A stretch of 64,000 bases of DNA, taken from the NCBI RefSeq assembly GCF_001654865.1, contig NZ_LXEO01000002.1:62001-126000 (forward strand). Direction: 5' to 3'. The notes beneath the pieces were generated by a model. It did no database searches and had not been told where the DNA came from. It saw only the letters and a program-made list of their open reading frames with translations. Made by a program: the position numbers and the translations under genes. The stretch comes from Buttiauxella noackiae ATCC 51607 (GTDB lineage Bacteria > Pseudomonadota > Gammaproteobacteria > Enterobacterales > Enterobacteriaceae). Positions 1,105 to 41,508 of this stretch are shown here, one piece after another; position 1 is the first letter of the stretch; each line of letters starts with the position of its first letter.

Positions 1105-4100
1105 TCAACCGACAGCAAACTCCTTCGCCAGGCGACTCACGCCCAGGCCGTTAATTTTCTTCACCTTAATCTGCACCGGGATCCGTTCTTTCATCGCCTC
1201 GACATGGCTTATCACGCCGATGGTTTTACCGCTGGCGTTAAGCGTGTCGAGTGCGTCCAGCGCGGTATCCAGCGTTTCGGCATCCAGCGTGCCAAAGCCT
1301 TCATCAAGGAACAGCGAGTCGATACGCGTTTTATGGCTCACCAGATCGGAGAGCGCCAGTGCCAGCGCGAGGCTGACCAGGAAGCTCTCGCCACCAGAAA
1401 GTGTACGCGTGTCACGCACCGCATCGGCCTGCCAGGTATCTACTACCTGCAACTCCAGCGCTTCGCTGTCTTTGCGTTGCAGCAGATAGCGGCCATGCAG
1501 ACGGTTGAGCTGGTTGTTCGCCAGCCACACCAGATTGTCGAGCGTCAGCCCCTGGGCAAACTTACGGAATTTATCGCCTTCTTTTGAGCCAATTAGCGCA
1601 TTGAGATAACCCCAGTCTTCAACTTGCTGCTGGCACTCAACTATCGCCTGCATCAGCCCTTGCTGGCGCTGGCGGTTTTCCTCGTCATGGCGTAGCTGTT
1701 GCTGAATTTGCCCTTGCTGCGTGGTGTTTTCACGTAGTTGCTGATTGCAGTGCGCCAGTTGTTCCTGCAATAAACTCAGTTCCGCCTCCGCCGCCAGTGT
1801 TTCCGGGCGAGCTGCAAGGTGTTCTGTCAGCGCTTTTTCTGCCTGCTGGAAAAGAACGGTTTGCTGCTGATGCTGTTGCTCAAGTTGCTGTTTTTTCTGC
1901 TCGAGCTGCTGGCGCTCGCTTTCACTTAACAACGCCGCCTGGAATGATTCCACATCGGCAAAGGGGCTTGCGGCAAGCGCAGTCAGGAACTGCTCGTTTG
2001 CCTGAGCAAGGCGGGTTTCTTCCTGCTGGAGTTGCTGTTGCAACGTCTGCCACTGGCTTTCCAGTGCGATGCAATCGCTGTGCAGGTTATGCCAGCTTTG
2101 TAGCGCCGAAATTTGTACGCTTTCGGATAACGGTGCGGGCTCGCTGCCGTCGTCAATCAAAGCGTTGAGTATGTTTTCCAGCGTGGTCAATTGCTGCTGC
2201 AAGTGTGGAAGCTGTTCGTGGCGCTGCTGCCAGTGCTGTGATTCCTGTTGGCGCTCCGCAAGCCAGCTATTTTCTTCGCCACTCGCCGGATGCTGTAAAG
2301 CGACATTTTCGAGCGCGGCGTTTAATGCTTCACGCTGGGATGTTATCTCTGCGGCGAGTTTGTCGTGCTGAACTCGCGCCTGCGCAAGTTGCTCTTCCAC
2401 GGCGATGCGCTGGGTGAGCTGATGCAATTGCTGCTCGCGTTGTTCTTCGCTTTCCAGCCAGTTCTGGAGATCGTCTTCTGGCGCCAGTGCAAGTTGCAAG
2501 CTGGCGCACAATTGTTGCCAGCGCGCACGAAGCGCGGTTTCTTCTTCATCCAGCGCCGTGGCTGCGGCAATCAGGTGTTCACGTTGCTTGCGTTGGGTAT
2601 CAAGCTGGCCCTTCATCGCAAAGCCCGCTTCCGCAAGGCTTGCCACTTCAAGTTTCAGCGTTGCAAGCCGCTGCTGATTTTCACCCGGTTTTATCGCCTG
2701 ATAATCCGCCACCGCCGGATGCTGCGTGGAGCCACACAGCGGGCAGGGTTCATCGGGCTGCAAATGGGCGCGTTCCGCTTCGAGGCTGACAATTCGTCTT
2801 TCCAGCTCGCACACTTTTTCCAGATCGCTTTCGTGCTGGCGGCGTTCTTTATATTGCTGGCGCTTGAGTGCCAGTTCCGCATCACCCTGAGCGATCAGTT
2901 TTTCAAGCACGGCGATATCTTGCTGCTGCTGCGTTTTGCGCTTGAGAAGTGAGGAAAGCTGCGGCTTTAGCGTGGCGAGCTGTTGGCGCAGAGGGCGAGC
3001 GGCTATCGTCGCTTGTAAATGAGCGCTCACTTCATCTGCATTAAGAGACAACTCAACAACCGGCAGCAGTCCGAGTTTTTTCTGGTTAGCTTCGATATCG
3101 CGCTGCAACGTCTGGAGCTGAGAGGTGTCGCGCTGTTGCTGGCTGAAAGCCATGCGCCAGCCCGCTAATTCCGCTCCCCACAGACGATAACTGTCGTGCG
3201 TTTTTAGCCACTCCTGGAGCTGGGTGTTTTCCTGCGTCAGTTTTGCTGCCTGGCTAGCTGCCGCAAGCCTTGTCTGCTGGCGGCGCACCATTGCCTGACG
3301 TAAGCGAGTATTCACTTCTTCTGTCTGGAGGCGGGTTTTTTGCAGCGTAGCCTGGAGTTCTTGCAGGCGTTGCCAGTCAGGGCGCAGTTTCTCCGCTGGC
3401 TGTGCGCGCGTTAGTTTTTCTAATAAAGGTGCCGCTTCTTCGATGGCTCGTGCGGCCGTATTGCGCGCCAGCTCGGATTGCGCATGGTTTTGCGTAAGCT
3501 GTGCAAGTTGGCTTAGCCATTGTTGGTGCTGCTGGAGTTTGAGCTGTTCTGCTAGCCGTGTTTTTTCTTCTGTAGTGAGTGCCTGCAAACTCTCGGAAAG
3601 CTGCTGACGCTGCTCTTCGCTTAACAGCGCGACACCTGCGGCCTGGGCTTGCAGGTTTTCAAGCTGGCTGCGCACATTCTTATGATTTTCGAACACCGCC
3701 GCAGAAACGGTGCCGTAGATTTCGGTGCCGGTGAGTTCTTCCAGCAGTGAGGCGCGGTCATTAGCATCGGCGTTTAAAAACGCGGCGAACTGGCCCTGGG
3801 AAAGCATCATCGAGCGGGTAAAACGGTCGTAATCCAGCCCGGTTAGCTTGGCGGTAAGATCGAGCTTATCTTTGACCTTATCGGCAACTATTTTGCCGCT
3901 GGCGACTTCGGCCAGTTCAACTCTTGGAGCTTGCAGATTGCCGTTTACCGCATTGCGCGCACGGTTCTGGCTCCAGAATGCGCGATATGCCACGCCTTTG
4001 ACTTCAAACTCCACTTCCGCCAGACATTCGGCGGTGTCGCGTGTCATCAGGTCATTCTGCGACTGGGAGACGGTATTGAGGCGCGGAGTTTTATGATAGA

Positions 4101-4260
4101 GCGCGAGGCAGATCGCATCGAGCAGCGTGGTTTTCCCGGCACCGGTTGGCCCGGTAATCGCAAACAAGCCGTTGCTGGCGAAGGGTTCGCTGGTGAAATC
4201 AATTTTCCATTCCCCTTTCAGGGAGTTGAGGTTTTTTAACCGCAGGCTGAGAATTTTCAT
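1105..4260 (-). CDS. sbcC: Exonuclease subunit SbcC
   Basis: Large ATPase subunit of the SbcCD (Mre11-Rad50-type) nuclease, which opens hairpins and cuts DNA ends at palindromes during replication and repair. At 1051 residues it is close to E. coli SbcC (1048). The Walker A motif GPTGAGKT lies at residues 37-44, followed by very long glutamine-rich coiled coils. The zinc hook CPLC is at C506/C509 in the middle. The ABC signature [12 protein letters not shown] and Walker [11 protein letters not shown] are near the C-terminus. Its ATG overlaps the sbcD stop by four bases (ATGA), so the two subunits are translationally coupled in one operon. Confidence 0.97.
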
Positions 4261-36953: not shown

Positions 36954-37643
36954 TCACAATTTCAGCGTTGATAGTGCCTGTTTTAATTCCCGCGCAATAT
37001 TTGGAATATCTTCCTTTTCAAAGAACCCCATTGTGACACCAATAGCCAATAGATTGCCTTTACGGTCCGGTATCGGGCAGGCGATTGATTGCGCGCCCGG
37101 AATTCCCTGCGCAGGTTTATAGCGTACGGCATATCCCAGTTTTGTTGTCTCTTCAATTAATTGCTGCTCTCGCTCATTCGCTGGCGTGTAATTGCCAAAG
37201 CACATATACACTTGCCCGGCAGCACTTAAGTGAATTGGGATTGGCGTATTATCACGAAAATCAATTTCGACATTTCGAAAACTGCGGTGATAGTGGCGTA
37301 GAACAAGATTGCCCGATTGAGCAATGACCATACCCGTTGAGAGATTCATCCGATCGCGAAACTCGCACAGCAAGTTGTTGATCAAAGAGAGGGGATCAGT
37401 ATGCGTTGCCGCACTACTTGCGAGCCGCACAATCGTGTCACCCAGGCAGTACTGCCCACTGCCATCCTGAAACAACATTCCCGTCCGGCAAAGTGAAACA
37501 AGATACTTATGCAGACGGCTTTTTGATAAGCCGCAGCCTGCTGCTACATCCGTGGCTCTCGCCCGGCCATGCTGCGTGGCGATGTACTCCATAATGGAGA
37601 CTGCAATATCAACTGAATTAACGCCTTGTGTCGTTTCTGGCAT
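36954..37643 (-). CDS. IclR-family transcriptional regulator
   Basis: A 229-residue regulator. The N-terminal winged helix (about 10-70) contains SVDIAVSIMEYIA, ATDVAAGCGLSKSRLHKYL and YCLGDTIVRLAS; the C-terminal IclR effector domain (about 85-225) contains HLSAAGQVYMCFG and GIPGAQSIACPIPDRKGNLLAIGVTM. The frame continues to a TTG at 37661, but the ATG at 37643 is better placed behind GAGGACGGG. It is divergent from the molybdoenzyme operon and so probably controls it. IclR proteins usually respond to small organic acids or aromatics, so the inducer may be the reductase substrate or a breakdown product (inference). Confidence 0.9.
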   Translation of the reverse strand: MPETTQGVNSVDIAVSIMEYIATQHGRARATDVAAGCGLSKSRLHKYLVSLCRTGMLFQDGSGQYCLGDTIVRLASSAATHTDPLSLINNLLCEFRDRMNLSTGMVIAQSGNLVLRHYHRSFRNVEIDFRDNTPIPIHLSAAGQVYMCFGNYTPANEREQQLIEETTKLGYAVRYKPAQGIPGAQSIACPIPDRKGNLLAIGVTMGFFEKEDIPNIARELKQALSTLKL

Positions 37644-37744
37644 GGTATATCCCGTCCTCAATCCTCGCTGAGTTTATCACTAAACCCCCTGTTATCGATC
37701 CGACTTCACACTCCTTAAACCCTGATTACGGGATTAAACGATCG

Positions 37745-37758
37745 TTGACCTTTCTCAA
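37745..37758. promoter_or_regulatory. FNR-like box upstream of the molybdoenzyme operon
   Basis: TTGAC-CTTT-CTCAA matches the FNR consensus TTGAT-N4-ATCAA at eight of ten bases, with symmetric mismatches. Its centre (37751.5) lies about 42-45 bases before a predicted start following the -10-like ACTAAT at 37784-37789, the usual activating position. Anaerobic activation would suit a DMSO-reductase-type enzyme. Confidence 0.6.
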
Positions 37759-37796: not shown

Positions 37797-37813
37797 AAAA
37801 CAGGAGGTATTTC

Positions 37814-40147
37814 ATGGAAGCGTTGAGCAAATATCGATTACAACGAAGAATGTTACTTAAAGGGATGGGAGTTGTTGGGTTGGCTTCGCTTACACCCTGC
37901 ATGTTGGGTCTACGCCAGGCAAATGGTGAGCCATTGCCACGGGTGCGCCTGAAACTCTCGGATTACAAGACCTACCGTTCCACCTGTGCAATGGAGTGCT
38001 TACATTGCAATTTGACGGCCTTTGTCTGGCAAGACCGGCTGATCAAAATTGAGGCAAGCAAAGATTTCAATGTGAAATGTTGCCTGCGCGGTATTAGCCG
38101 TACCAAATGGGTATATCACCCGCTACGTCTGACCCAGCCACTTTTGCGGACAGGTGAGAAAGGCAAAGGGATTTTTAAACCGATCAGTTGGGATGAAGCT
38201 CTCGATCTTATCGAAAACAAGATTCGTGACACGATTACGGATCATGGCAATGAAGGGCTTTTAATCACCACCCATGCCGGGAATATGGACTCCATCAAGA
38301 ATGATATGGGGAAAGCCTTTTTCGATTATCTGGGAGGATCAACCAAACAGGCTGGGTCTCTTTGTTGTGCAGCGGTGACTGCGGCGATGATACCAATGCT
38401 GGGTCTTCGCTATGCCGATACACGCGATACGATAGCCGACAGCCGTTATATTCTTTGCTGGGGGAATAATCCAGCAGTCACCATGCATGCTTATTTCAAA
38501 AATTACAGTCAGGCCCAGCGCAATGGCGCACGCATGGTGGTTATTGATCCTCGTTTTAATGAAACGGCTGCAAAAGCTGATGAGTGGGTCCCTATTGTTC
38601 CAGGTACGGATATCGCTTTGGCTTTGGGGATGATCAAAATCATCATTGATGAAAAGCGTTATGACGCTGAATTTTTGAGGGCACATACCGGCGCTGTTTA
38701 TCTGGTAGATGCGCAGCAAAAATTATTGCGTGAAAAAGCTGAAGATCCGGATAGCTATCTGGTCTTCGATACCCATAGTCAGAGCGTTGTGCGCCATGAC
38801 TTACCAGGCGTTCTGCCCGCTCTTTTTAGCAACGAATTGCCAGTAGGCAGCGCGTTTACAACCGTTCTTGACCAGATAAAACAAGAAGCAGAGCCCTGGA
38901 ATGTCCAAAGGGTAACTGAAGAAACTGATATTCCTGAACAGACGGTATTGCGCCTTGCACGTGATTACGCCAGCACAACACCTTCGATGATTATCCAGAA
39001 TATGTCGGGTGCGCAGCGCACTGAATTTGGAACTTATGTGGCTGCGAGCCAATTCTATCTGGCATTGCTTACCGGGAATATCGGTAAACGGGGCGCTGGT
39101 GTTTGCGATGCTGGTGGTGCAAGGCAGATGGCTAAGTTTTCCCCGATTATTCCACCTGCACCAAATGCCAAAAAGATCGCGCCAATCCCTGTGTCGAAAA
39201 TTGGGGAATGGGTTGTCCAGCAAAAACCTCATCCTGTTAAGTTCTGGTGGAACATGACGATGGGAGCCATGACTCAACTCCCGAATACCAACCAGGTTCG
39301 TGAAGCCTTCAAAAGCGTTCCTTTTGTTGTGGTTGCGGACAACCTAATGACTTCTTCGGCGCTGTATGCGGATCTGGTGCTTCCGGTAACGACTATTTTT
39401 GAAGACGTGAGCCTGATGGCCGGTGTACGTAGTCATTATGTGCAATTGATGGAAAAGGCCGTGGAACCGCCGGGTGAAGCAAAACCTGACTATTGGATTT
39501 TTGCCCAACTTGCAGAGCGCTTTGGGTTTGGTGAGGTGTTTAACCAGCCAATAGAGCACTACATTGATGCCTGCCTTGAAGGTTCTGGTATTACTCGAGA
39601 GATGCTGGCTCAAGGGCCCGTTCGCCCCACACAGGGCGATTGGATTCCATTCAAAGACGGGCAGTTCCGCACCAGTACCGGCAAAGCAAATCTGTTTATA
39701 GAAGAGTGGCAAAAGAAAAACTTTTCACCGGTGGTCACCTGGAAACAGGTTGCTGAGTCAGTAAAAGGTTCTCCTGAGCTTGCGAAAAAATACCCTCTCA
39801 TGGCGGTGCAACGCAAGTTGGCCCGCAGCGTTCATTCAAGCCACGGTATGAATGAATGGATCCTCGAGGTGCAACGCAACCGTCCAAACGTAATGATTCA
39901 TCCAGATGATGCGCGTTCGCGCAATATCAGCGCTGGCGAATGGGTGGTTGTTTATAACCATCGCGGTGAACATCGGGCAATTGCGGATGTGACCAGCCAT
40001 ATTAAGCGGGGTGTGGTGTCGTTAGATAACGGTTGGTGGGAGCAACAGGGCGGCAGTAGTAGTCATGTGACGAATGATCATGTGGAACCATTAAGCAACG
40101 GACATTGCTGTAACAGCACCTTGGTTGATGTGAGAAGGGAGGCGTAA
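37814..40147 (+). CDS. Molybdopterin oxidoreductase catalytic subunit (DMSO-reductase family, TAT-exported)
   Basis: A 777-residue catalytic subunit of a complex iron-sulfur molybdoenzyme. It begins with a twin-arginine signal (R11-R12 in LQRRMLLKG, followed by a hydrophobic stretch). A [4Fe-4S] motif C58-X3-C62-X2-C65-X24-C90 ends in CLRG. PISWDEALDLIENKI is the usual family anchor. The likely molybdenum-ligand region is GSLCCAAVTAAM with adjacent C184 and C185. The C-terminal MGD-binding domain runs from about 650 (ARSVHSSHGMNEW) to the end, which has a further Cys pair. AGGAGG lies before the ATG. Partner Fe-S and membrane subunits follow. It is related to DmsA/PhsA-type enzymes; the electron acceptor is not identifiable from sequence. 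Confidence 0.88.
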   Translation: MEALSKYRLQRRMLLKGMGVVGLASLTPCMLGLRQANGEPLPRVRLKLSDYKTYRSTCAMECLHCNLTAFVWQDRLIKIEASKDFNVKCCLRGISRTKWVYHPLRLTQPLLRTGEKGKGIFKPISWDEALDLIENKIRDTITDHGNEGLLITTHAGNMDSIKNDMGKAFFDYLGGSTKQAGSLCCAAVTAAMIPMLGLRYADTRDTIADSRYILCWGNNPAVTMHAYFKNYSQAQRNGARMVVIDPRFNETAAKADEWVPIVPGTDIALALGMIKIIIDEKRYDAEFLRAHTGAVYLVDAQQKLLREKAEDPDSYLVFDTHSQSVVRHDLPGVLPALFSNELPVGSAFTTVLDQIKQEAEPWNVQRVTEETDIPEQTVLRLARDYASTTPSMIIQNMSGAQRTEFGTYVAASQFYLALLTGNIGKRGAGVCDAGGARQMAKFSPIIPPAPNAKKIAPIPVSKIGEWVVQQKPHPVKFWWNMTMGAMTQLPNTNQVREAFKSVPFVVVADNLMTSSALYADLVLPVTTIFEDVSLMAGVRSHYVQLMEKAVEPPGEAKPDYWIFAQLAERFGFGEVFNQPIEHYIDACLEGSGITREMLAQGPVRPTQGDWIPFKDGQFRTSTGKANLFIEEWQKKNFSPVVTWKQVAESVKGSPELAKKYPLMAVQRKLARSVHSSHGMNEWILEVQRNRPNVMIHPDDARSRNISAGEWVVVYNHRGEHRAIADVTSHIKRGVVSLDNGWWEQQGGSSSHVTNDHVEPLSNGHCCNSTLVDVRREA

Positions 40148-40149
40148 CT

Positions 40150-40698
40150 ATGGCTAAACAATATGGTTTTCTCATCGATATGAAAAATTGCTATGGCTGC
40201 AAAACTTGCAGCATGGCGTGTAAATCAGAAAACGAAACACCTCTGGGTGTACTTTGGCGACGTGTAAGGGAATGCCGTACGGATGATCCAAACAGTCAGG
40301 CATTTATTACGATGTCCTGTAACCACTGTGACGATCCACAATGCATGAAAGTTTGCCCGGCAAATACCTACCATAAACGTCCTGATGGCATCGTAGTACA
40401 GGATCACGATCGCTGTATTGGTTGCCGTATGTGCATTATGGCTTGTCCCTATAACGCACCCGTGTTTGATCCCAATGAAGGCAAAACGAGTAAATGTAAT
40501 CTTTGTGCCGAGAGGCTAGATGAAGGGTTATTGCCCCGTTGTGTTGAGTCATGCCCAGCAGGTGTACTGCGTTTTGGTGAAATTTCTGCACTACGAGCGG
40601 AGTATCAAACTCCCTGGGAACGGCTGGAAAAACGTTATCACCTGCCAGACCATCGGATCAGTGGGCCAAATATCGTGATCATTCCTGCGGATGAGTAA
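40150..40698 (+). CDS. Four-cluster ferredoxin-like electron-transfer subunit (DmsB/PhsB type)
   Basis: A 182-residue iron-sulfur subunit with 16 cysteines arranged for four [4Fe-4S] clusters: C14/17/20/24 (CYGCKTCSMAC), then CNHCDDPQCMKVC, CIGCRMCIMAC and CNLC...CVESC. It would wire the membrane subunit to the molybdenum subunit. It has no signal peptide of its own and is probably carried across the membrane with the TAT-bearing catalytic subunit, as in DmsAB. The start is two bases after the catalytic subunit's stop, implying tight coupling. Confidence 0.92.
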   Translation: MAKQYGFLIDMKNCYGCKTCSMACKSENETPLGVLWRRVRECRTDDPNSQAFITMSCNHCDDPQCMKVCPANTYHKRPDGIVVQDHDRCIGCRMCIMACPYNAPVFDPNEGKTSKCNLCAERLDEGLLPRCVESCPAGVLRFGEISALRAEYQTPWERLEKRYHLPDHRISGPNIVIIPADE

Positions 40699-40707
40699 GG
40701 GGTTTAT

Positions 40708-41508
40708 ATGGAAATTTATGAATTACCACTCGTATTCTTTACGGTTCTGGCGCAATGGGGAATAGGCGGTGTAATCGCTTTAACTCTTTGTCAATCTGGA
40801 AAAAATAGAGTTTTTGATACACCGACTGTGCGTAAAATTGCATTGGTCTTTTGGCTGATAACCATAATCGGCTCCTGTGCTTCTTTGGCTCATTTGGGGT
40901 CGCCATTAGGCGCTTATCGGGCTTTTGCAGGCCTTGGGCGTTCATGGCTTAGTCGTGAAGTTGTCGCCTTTATTTTGCTTAATGGGGGGCTGACGCTGTG
41001 GCTTTTAATGTGCTGGTTTGCGAATGACTCTGTATGGATGAAAGTCGCCAACTGGTGTGTTTGTTTGCTGGGTATTGGCGCGATCCTGGTCAGCTCTCAG
41101 ATCTATTACCAGATGACACTACACCCATTGTGGAACACCCTCGCCACGCCGTTTGCCTTCTTTGGCTCCGCACTATTGCTTGGATTTGCCAGTATCAATG
41201 TCATGGCAAATTATGTTCAGCAAAATCTCCCGGCAACGATTAAAGCGGGGTTGTTGCTGGGAATCGCGTTGATCATTCTGGCTCTGTGGATGCGATACCA
41301 TATTCCCGGCGCGGATGCCGGCAGTGTCCTGTTCTGGTGGCAGTTGCTGGCAAGCGTTGTCGTGAGTGTCTGGTTATTATCTCGCGCAGGCAGTAGAAAA
41401 ATCCCTTTATTTGCAGGGATGTTGCTGGTGGGGATAATTTTATCGGGTGAACTTGCAGGCCGGATGTTGTTTTATGGCAACGTCATGAGTGGAGCGCCCT
41501 GGTTTTAG
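40708..41508 (+). CDS. DmsC-type membrane anchor subunit
   Basis: A 266-residue integral membrane protein with about eight hydrophobic helices. It belongs to the DmsC family of quinol-oxidising anchors: ELPLVFFTVLAQWGIGGV at the N-terminus and SLAHLGSPLGAYRAF-LGRSWLSREV, the DmsC signature region (compare the HLGSP stretch of DmsC). It would oxidise menaquinol or a similar quinol and pass electrons to the Fe-S subunit. Nine bases after the previous gene. Its stop lies 12 bases from the convergent yajL; no clear terminator separates them. Confidence 0.88.
   Translation: MEIYELPLVFFTVLAQWGIGGVIALTLCQSGKNRVFDTPTVRKIALVFWLITIIGSCASLAHLGSPLGAYRAFAGLGRSWLSREVVAFILLNGGLTLWLLMCWFANDSVWMKVANWCVCLLGIGAILVSSQIYYQMTLHPLWNTLATPFAFFGSALLLGFASINVMANYVQQNLPATIKAGLLLGIALIILALWMRYHIPGADAGSVLFWWQLLASVVVSVWLLSRAGSRKIPLFAGMLLVGIILSGELAGRMLFYGNVMSGAPWF

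Follow-up and report, generated by a model that had tools for sequence, protein, structure and literature searches.

A DmsABC-like gene cassette of Buttiauxella noackiae with a conserved cysteine pair at the putative metal-ligand site of its molybdopterin subunit

Gene cassette and genomic setting

The analysed stretch of Buttiauxella noackiae ATCC 51607 DNA, 64,000 nucleotides in length and hereafter called the window, harbors a four-gene cassette comprising a divergent IclR-type transcriptional regulator gene (R; 36954..37661, minus strand; PF09339 HTH_IclR; e-value: 9.2e-11) and three plus-strand genes for the subunits A, B and C. The A gene (37814..40147), preceded by a ribosome-binding site read from the sequence (AGGAGG; 37802..37807, plus strand), encodes a 777 amino acid catalytic subunit of the molybdopterin oxidoreductases of the DMSO reductase (MopB) family. 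Matches to PF00384 (Bitscore: 188.8; e-value: 1.8e-55; cut-off: 24) and PF01568 (Bitscore: 77.4; e-value: 1.1e-21; cut-off: 26.8) place the product in the MopB superfamily, with the dinucleotide-binding domain present. The best NCBIfam model for A is TIGR02166 (dmsA_ynfE), at a Bitscore of 315.8 below the cut-off of 777.7, while the PhsA model NF012032 is matched at 255.2, also below its cut-off (694). By eye, residues 10-16 (QRRMLLK; 37841..37861, plus strand) form what we take to be a twin-arginine (Tat) motif, replaced by RRTLLKG in most homologues.

Gene B (40150..40698, plus strand) codes for a 182 amino acid DmsB-like four-cluster ferredoxin-type subunit (PF13247), whose four cysteine groups were recognized by eye and whose best model, TIGR02951 (DmsB), scores 173.2 bits, below the cut-off of 214.1. 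Gene C (40708..41508, plus strand) encodes a 266 amino acid membrane anchor of the DmsC family (PF04976; Bitscore: 90; cut-off: 22.3). The DmsB-type and DmsC-type partners of a DmsABC complex are thus both present, B at a score below its model cut-off. A chaperone gene is absent from the cassette, and three TorD-type proteins are encoded elsewhere in the Buttiauxella genome. The genes flanking the cassette are housekeeping genes, and no hint of a substrate is found among these neighbours.

An FNR-like box (TTGACctttCTCAA; 37745..37758), with two mismatches to the FNR consensus TTGATN4ATCAA, lies upstream of the A gene. Sites with two mismatches or fewer are found upstream of A in 29/31 homologous loci, compared with 182/930 random 200-nt stretches. 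The IclR-type homologue adjoins the A gene in 28/31 loci. A regulator of this type points to a small organic inducer, and one would not usually expect it to respond to an inorganic acceptor.

R, A, B and C occur together in 28 of the 31 loci, R being missing from L023, L024 and L030, and the cassette remains intact across different chromosomal surroundings. Locus L030 lies on a contig of 8.6 kb from a metagenome bin labelled Deltaproteobacteria, and its host is therefore uncertain; a PucR-type regulator (2566-4140) is encoded upstream in place of the IclR-type protein. Among the close relatives listed, the closest homologue in a named genome is that of Buttiauxella massiliensis (98% protein identity), and carriers include Citrobacter, Proteus, Providencia, Yersinia and Serratia. 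The distribution is patchy: a search of 295 genomes from the same family gave 17 matches in 16 of them, counting the genome of the window, and two of twelve Buttiauxella genomes carry the cassette. Only the window's own genome matches among 398 genomes sampled over the phylum, and only G676 itself among 297 genomes of the phylum to which the L030 bin is assigned. Complete E. coli genomes yielded no match, near or distant, and viral contigs yielded none, while plasmids carry only relatives of less than 60% identity (best listed: 30.3%). The plasmid enzyme L065, considered as a possible member, was rejected as not belonging to the family.

In seven of the ten cassette-free Buttiauxella genomes the flanking genes thiI and yajL are 126-162 bp apart, and in one they are located on different contigs. 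A sugar-PTS cassette occupies the gap instead in genome G977 (L189; 892-5062), in which genes for a GntR-type regulator, a glucosamine-6-phosphate-deaminase-like protein, a 6-phospho-beta-glucosidase-like protein and a PTS EIIC-like protein were recognized by eye. About 780 bp separate thiI and yajL in G979 (L190), and this extra DNA gave no tblastn hit to any of the four cassette proteins. The thiI-yajL site looks like an insertion hot spot.

Cysteine conservation and the metal-ligand position

Thirteen cysteines are present in A, at residues 29, 58, 62, 65, 89, 90, 184, 185, 215, 431, 587, 765 and 766. Their conservation was followed in an alignment of the 31 genome-contig loci, all from close relatives, and the 17 matches from 16 of the 295 same-family genomes, from which 11 identical copies were dropped to leave 37 distinct rows, the window included, with 53-98% identity to the window's protein. 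C58, C62, C90, C184, C185, C587 (39572..39574, plus strand) and C766 are invariant, while C65, C89, C215 and C431 are each retained in 36/37 rows, C765 in 33 and C29 in 22. All four combinations of TGT and TGC codons are used at residues 184-185 (13, 9, 9 and 6 rows), indicating that the residues themselves are conserved and not merely the DNA. Cysteines as a class are not enriched among the invariant positions (7/13 cysteines against 270/777 positions; hypergeometric P = 0.12), and the weight of the evidence lies in the identity of the cysteines that persist even in the 53% identical homologue and in their positions.

The most divergent row, L055, is a second copy in genome G238 and is 53% identical to the A protein of the window; the same gene is found in L094 (5433-7796), with no IclR gene beside it. 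This paralogue has His in place of C65, the third cysteine of the Fe-S motif, and Gly in place of C89, while the cysteine pair at the ligand site is kept. G238 appears to be Leminorella-like, judging from its other copy, which is 75-76% identical to the window's protein and has a neighbourhood of the L035 type.

The Fe-S motif C-X3-C-X2-C-X24-C, as given in the original prediction, is formed by C58, C62, C65 and C90 (37985..38083, plus strand), and the interval highlighted there, 37985-38368, extends exactly from C58 to C185. Adjacent cysteines had been proposed for the fourth position of this FS0 [4Fe-4S] cluster. C90 (38081-38083) does correspond to that ligand, whereas C89 (38078-38080) is an extra residue, replaced by Gly in the 53% paralogue. 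In a second alignment, six family members were compared with 33 control sequences, namely other enzymes of Buttiauxella and related genomes, plasmid records and three PDB chain stretches. C65 and C90 align with the third and fourth cluster ligands of these controls, the spacing from the second ligand to the third being shorter by one residue. Spacings, read by eye from the aligned segments, are C-X3-C-X3-C in 14 of the 31 controls that cover the region (L106 among those with this spacing), C-X2-C-X3-C in 11 and C-X4-C-X3-C in three, the remainder being a NarG protein with H-X3-C-X3-C (L092), one without the first cysteine and one with no motif. None of these 31 readable controls shows C-X3-C-X2-C, the other two of the 33 not covering the region. 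Subunit A departs in this respect from the C-X2-C-X3-C of type I enzymes, and from the type II pattern of NarG and PcrA, in which H-X3-C-X3-C is combined with an Asp ligand. The residue before the second FS0 cysteine is Glu in 37/37 homologues and Asn in DmsA-type rows.

Downstream, C184 and C185 (38363..38368, plus strand) had been placed at the molybdenum-ligand region. C184 falls in the metal-ligand column, which in the 33 controls holds Ser in 19, Cys in 13 and Gly in one, whereas C185 is the residue that follows it, in a column with Thr in 11 controls, His in five, Met in three and others, and Cys in 0/33. The possibility that the pair lies away from the active site, or is not conserved, was examined by aligning homologues, and both cysteines were found in 37/37 rows at the ligand column. 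The column of the serine ligand of type III (DmsA) enzymes accordingly holds Cys in 37/37 homologues, and by alignment A agrees with the Cys or Sec ligand of type I (PsrA/PhsA/NapA/FDH), in line with the earlier proposal that a cysteine stands where DmsA has its serine. The C-terminal cysteine pair also noted there exists as C765-C766 (40106..40111, plus strand), but is only half conserved (33/37 against 37/37 rows), and it aligns to the C-terminal tail, away from the ligand.

In single-sequence HMMER searches C184 is matched by Cys173 of PsrA (2vpw), by the equivalent Cys in HDCR FdhF and by the Ser in TMAO reductase, all of which we take to be metal ligands. A NarG control (L092) likewise shows Cys in this column, although its known ligand is Asp; this Cys, one of the 13, is probably an alignment slip, and the ligand column is thus not error-free. 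The loop from G175 to the ligand comprises nine residues in 6/6 family rows and in 19/19 Ser rows, whereas the 13 controls with Cys in the ligand column have ten residues (12 rows) or 11 (one row). A therefore combines the nine-residue loop of DmsA-type enzymes, and not the 10-11 residues of type I, with a Cys-type ligand position. AlphaFold modelling with 27 family sequences gave a mean pLDDT of 56.1, with residues 176-205 below 50, and since the model is poor at this site the assignment of C184 rests on the alignment. On this basis the metal is probably held by C184 where DMSO reductase uses Ser, with C185 following. Cysteine ligands as such are common among enzymes of this superfamily, and what sets subunit A apart is the DmsA-type scaffold, the second cysteine and the cluster spacing.

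A DNA scan with the loose pattern G-[ST]-L-C-C-x-A gave matches in 285/398 and 149/297 genomes, with many rows at or below the reversed-pattern control. Inspection of 60 such loci yielded a single molybdopterin protein, whose motif is located away from the ligand. The own genome of the window also encodes an FDH-H-like protein with a ligand Cys (RVCHGP) beside one with an in-frame TGA at that position (L088, L089).

Proposed function and alternative explanations

Taken together, the Tat-like signal of A, its partner subunits B and C and the FNR-like site point to an anaerobic, periplasmic, quinol-linked enzyme. As such, R and the ABC genes probably specify a Tat-exported, FNR-controlled and membrane-anchored respiratory Mo or W enzyme on the DmsABC plan, with C184 as metal ligand, and a reductase is more likely than a dehydrogenase. 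Menaquinol would deliver electrons to C, from which they would travel along the four clusters of B to FS0 of A (C58, C62, C65 and C90) and on to a bis-pyranopterin Mo or W coordinated by Cys184 instead of Ser, where most likely a small electron acceptor would be reduced. Cys185 could supply a second-shell thiol beside the metal, at the position where formate dehydrogenases have the His that follows their ligand. Expression would be expected under anaerobic conditions, by way of the FNR box, and in the presence of an inducer recognized by the regulator.

The pairing with acetylene hydratase (2e7z) offers a different register, in which C185 would be the metal ligand and C184 its neighbour: the ligand-region Cys of that enzyme pairs with C185 in both single-sequence HMMER searches, and the two cysteines of the family are both invariant. 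We regard this as improbable, since PsrA, TMAO reductase and HDCR FdhF all pair with C184, the acetylene hydratase Cys itself falls in the C184 column of the multiple alignment, and a loop of nine residues, the length seen in Ser-ligated rows, leads up to C184. That the pair is a product of chance, in a family so conserved that any residue appears fixed, draws on the 270 invariant positions among 777 and on the lack of enrichment of cysteines, but is hard to credit given the location of the pair in the ligand column, its retention at 53% identity in L055 and its mixed codons. Catalysis at FS0 that dispenses with Mo, as claimed in the available text of a preprint for Salmonella periplasmic sulfate reductases (PMC12636705), would be served here by the C-X3-C-X2-C motif; the unusual spacing, the His for the third cysteine in one paralogue and the inclusion of Proteus among the genera said there to carry such enzymes speak for it. 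We consider it very unlikely, since the enzymes described in that text have a Ser ligand and C3XC3XC or C4XC3XC motifs, whereas the present family has Cys in 37/37 rows and another spacing, and differs from DmsA-type rows in the invariant Glu before the second FS0 cysteine.

The nature of the substrate is a separate matter. Because the inducer of the IclR-type regulator is perhaps organic, there is some chance, though well short of even, that the enzyme acts on an organic compound sensed by this regulator, in the manner of acetylene hydratase or the catechol dehydroxylases, with no inorganic acceptor. The IclR-type regulator in 28/31 loci, the PucR-type regulator beside the L030 copy and a profile match to acetylene hydratase (e-value: 7.2e-52) are in keeping with this, as are catechol dehydroxylases described, in the available part of the source, as Tat-exported and probably membrane-anchored (PMC7028382). 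PcrA (1.4e-65) and PsrA (1.2e-62) give better profile scores, however, acetylene hydratase falls outside the Cys-Cys clade in the tree (weak support), and the cassette contains no catabolic gene.

Within the favored reading of a quinol-linked respiratory enzyme with C184 on the metal, C185 could be a second-shell residue, a redox switch or a catalytic thiol. The last of these would make the vicinal pair itself catalytic, with C184 on the metal and C185 as a reacting thiol to which a chalcogen or thiol substrate would be joined in a disulfide or persulfide. Combined with a new FS0 motif, whose third cysteine has given way to His in L055, this would amount to a Ser-to-Cys switch that arose in nature on a DmsA scaffold and has a substrate of its own, a speculative and rather unlikely outcome. 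If the second cysteine does participate, this would amount to new active-site chemistry. A Ser-type body with a Cys ligand furthermore represents a natural experiment on the part played by the ligand in substrate choice. The hosts are ordinary, culturable enterobacteria, and because some relatives carry the cassette while others lack it, gene removal offers a way to test what it does.

Comparison with known systems

In a tree of 12 family rows and 33 others, which includes several long branches and three partial rows, the Cys-Cys family forms one clade (100/100). It shares one side of the tree with DmsA/TorA, NarG and the plasmid enzyme L065, the order in which these and the clade itself branch being left open. 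PsrA, PhsA-like proteins, TtrA and acetylene hydratase make up a separate branch, and FDH/NapA likewise stand apart. The likeness to the type III systems DmsABC and YnfEFGH extends to the gene order A-B-C, the DmsB- and DmsC-type partners, the Tat-like signal, the C-X-R-G following the fourth cluster Cys and the nine-residue ligand loop. The cassette differs from DmsABC in the Cys for the Ser ligand, the Cys at +1, the C-X3-C-X2-C in place of C-X3-C-X3-C, scores below the TIGR02166 and TIGR02951 cut-offs and the lack of a chaperone gene. Ser-to-Cys variants of DMSO reductase have reportedly been engineered. PsrA and PhsA (type I), which belong to periplasmic quinol-linked complexes, share the Cys in the ligand column but differ in loop length (10-11), in their C-X2-C-X3-C motif and in their separate tree branch. 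Acetylene hydratase has a Cys ligand that aligns with the C184-C185 pair, but its loop comprises ten residues and it belongs to a different branch, while the catechol dehydroxylases were likened by description only.

Sorting of the superfamily into types by protein ligand is set out in the available text of PMC6650914. The Salmonella Psr1-3 periplasmic sulfate reductases resemble the present system, according to the available part of the preprint, as DmsABC-like paralogues moving between genomes, but they keep Ser and the C3XC3XC or C4XC3XC motifs of the two dominant lineages in the Salmonella DmsA-paralogue tree, and A shares neither feature (PMC12636705). Our literature search found no report of this cassette or of a Cys-Cys ligand pair. 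In the accessible part of their paper, Wells et al. (2023) describe novel MopB branches that apparently use Cys and take a basal position relative to the Ser, Asp and chalcophilic groups; the best hits of their uncharacterised members are DmsA-like, PsrA-like and AH-like (PMC10100899). The Cys pair and the FS0 spacing find no mention for these branches in that part of the text. The place of the Cys-Cys clade, matched by description only, fits these Cys-coordinating branches, and Cys-ligated DmsA-like branches are, as far as that text extends, already in print (PMC10100899).
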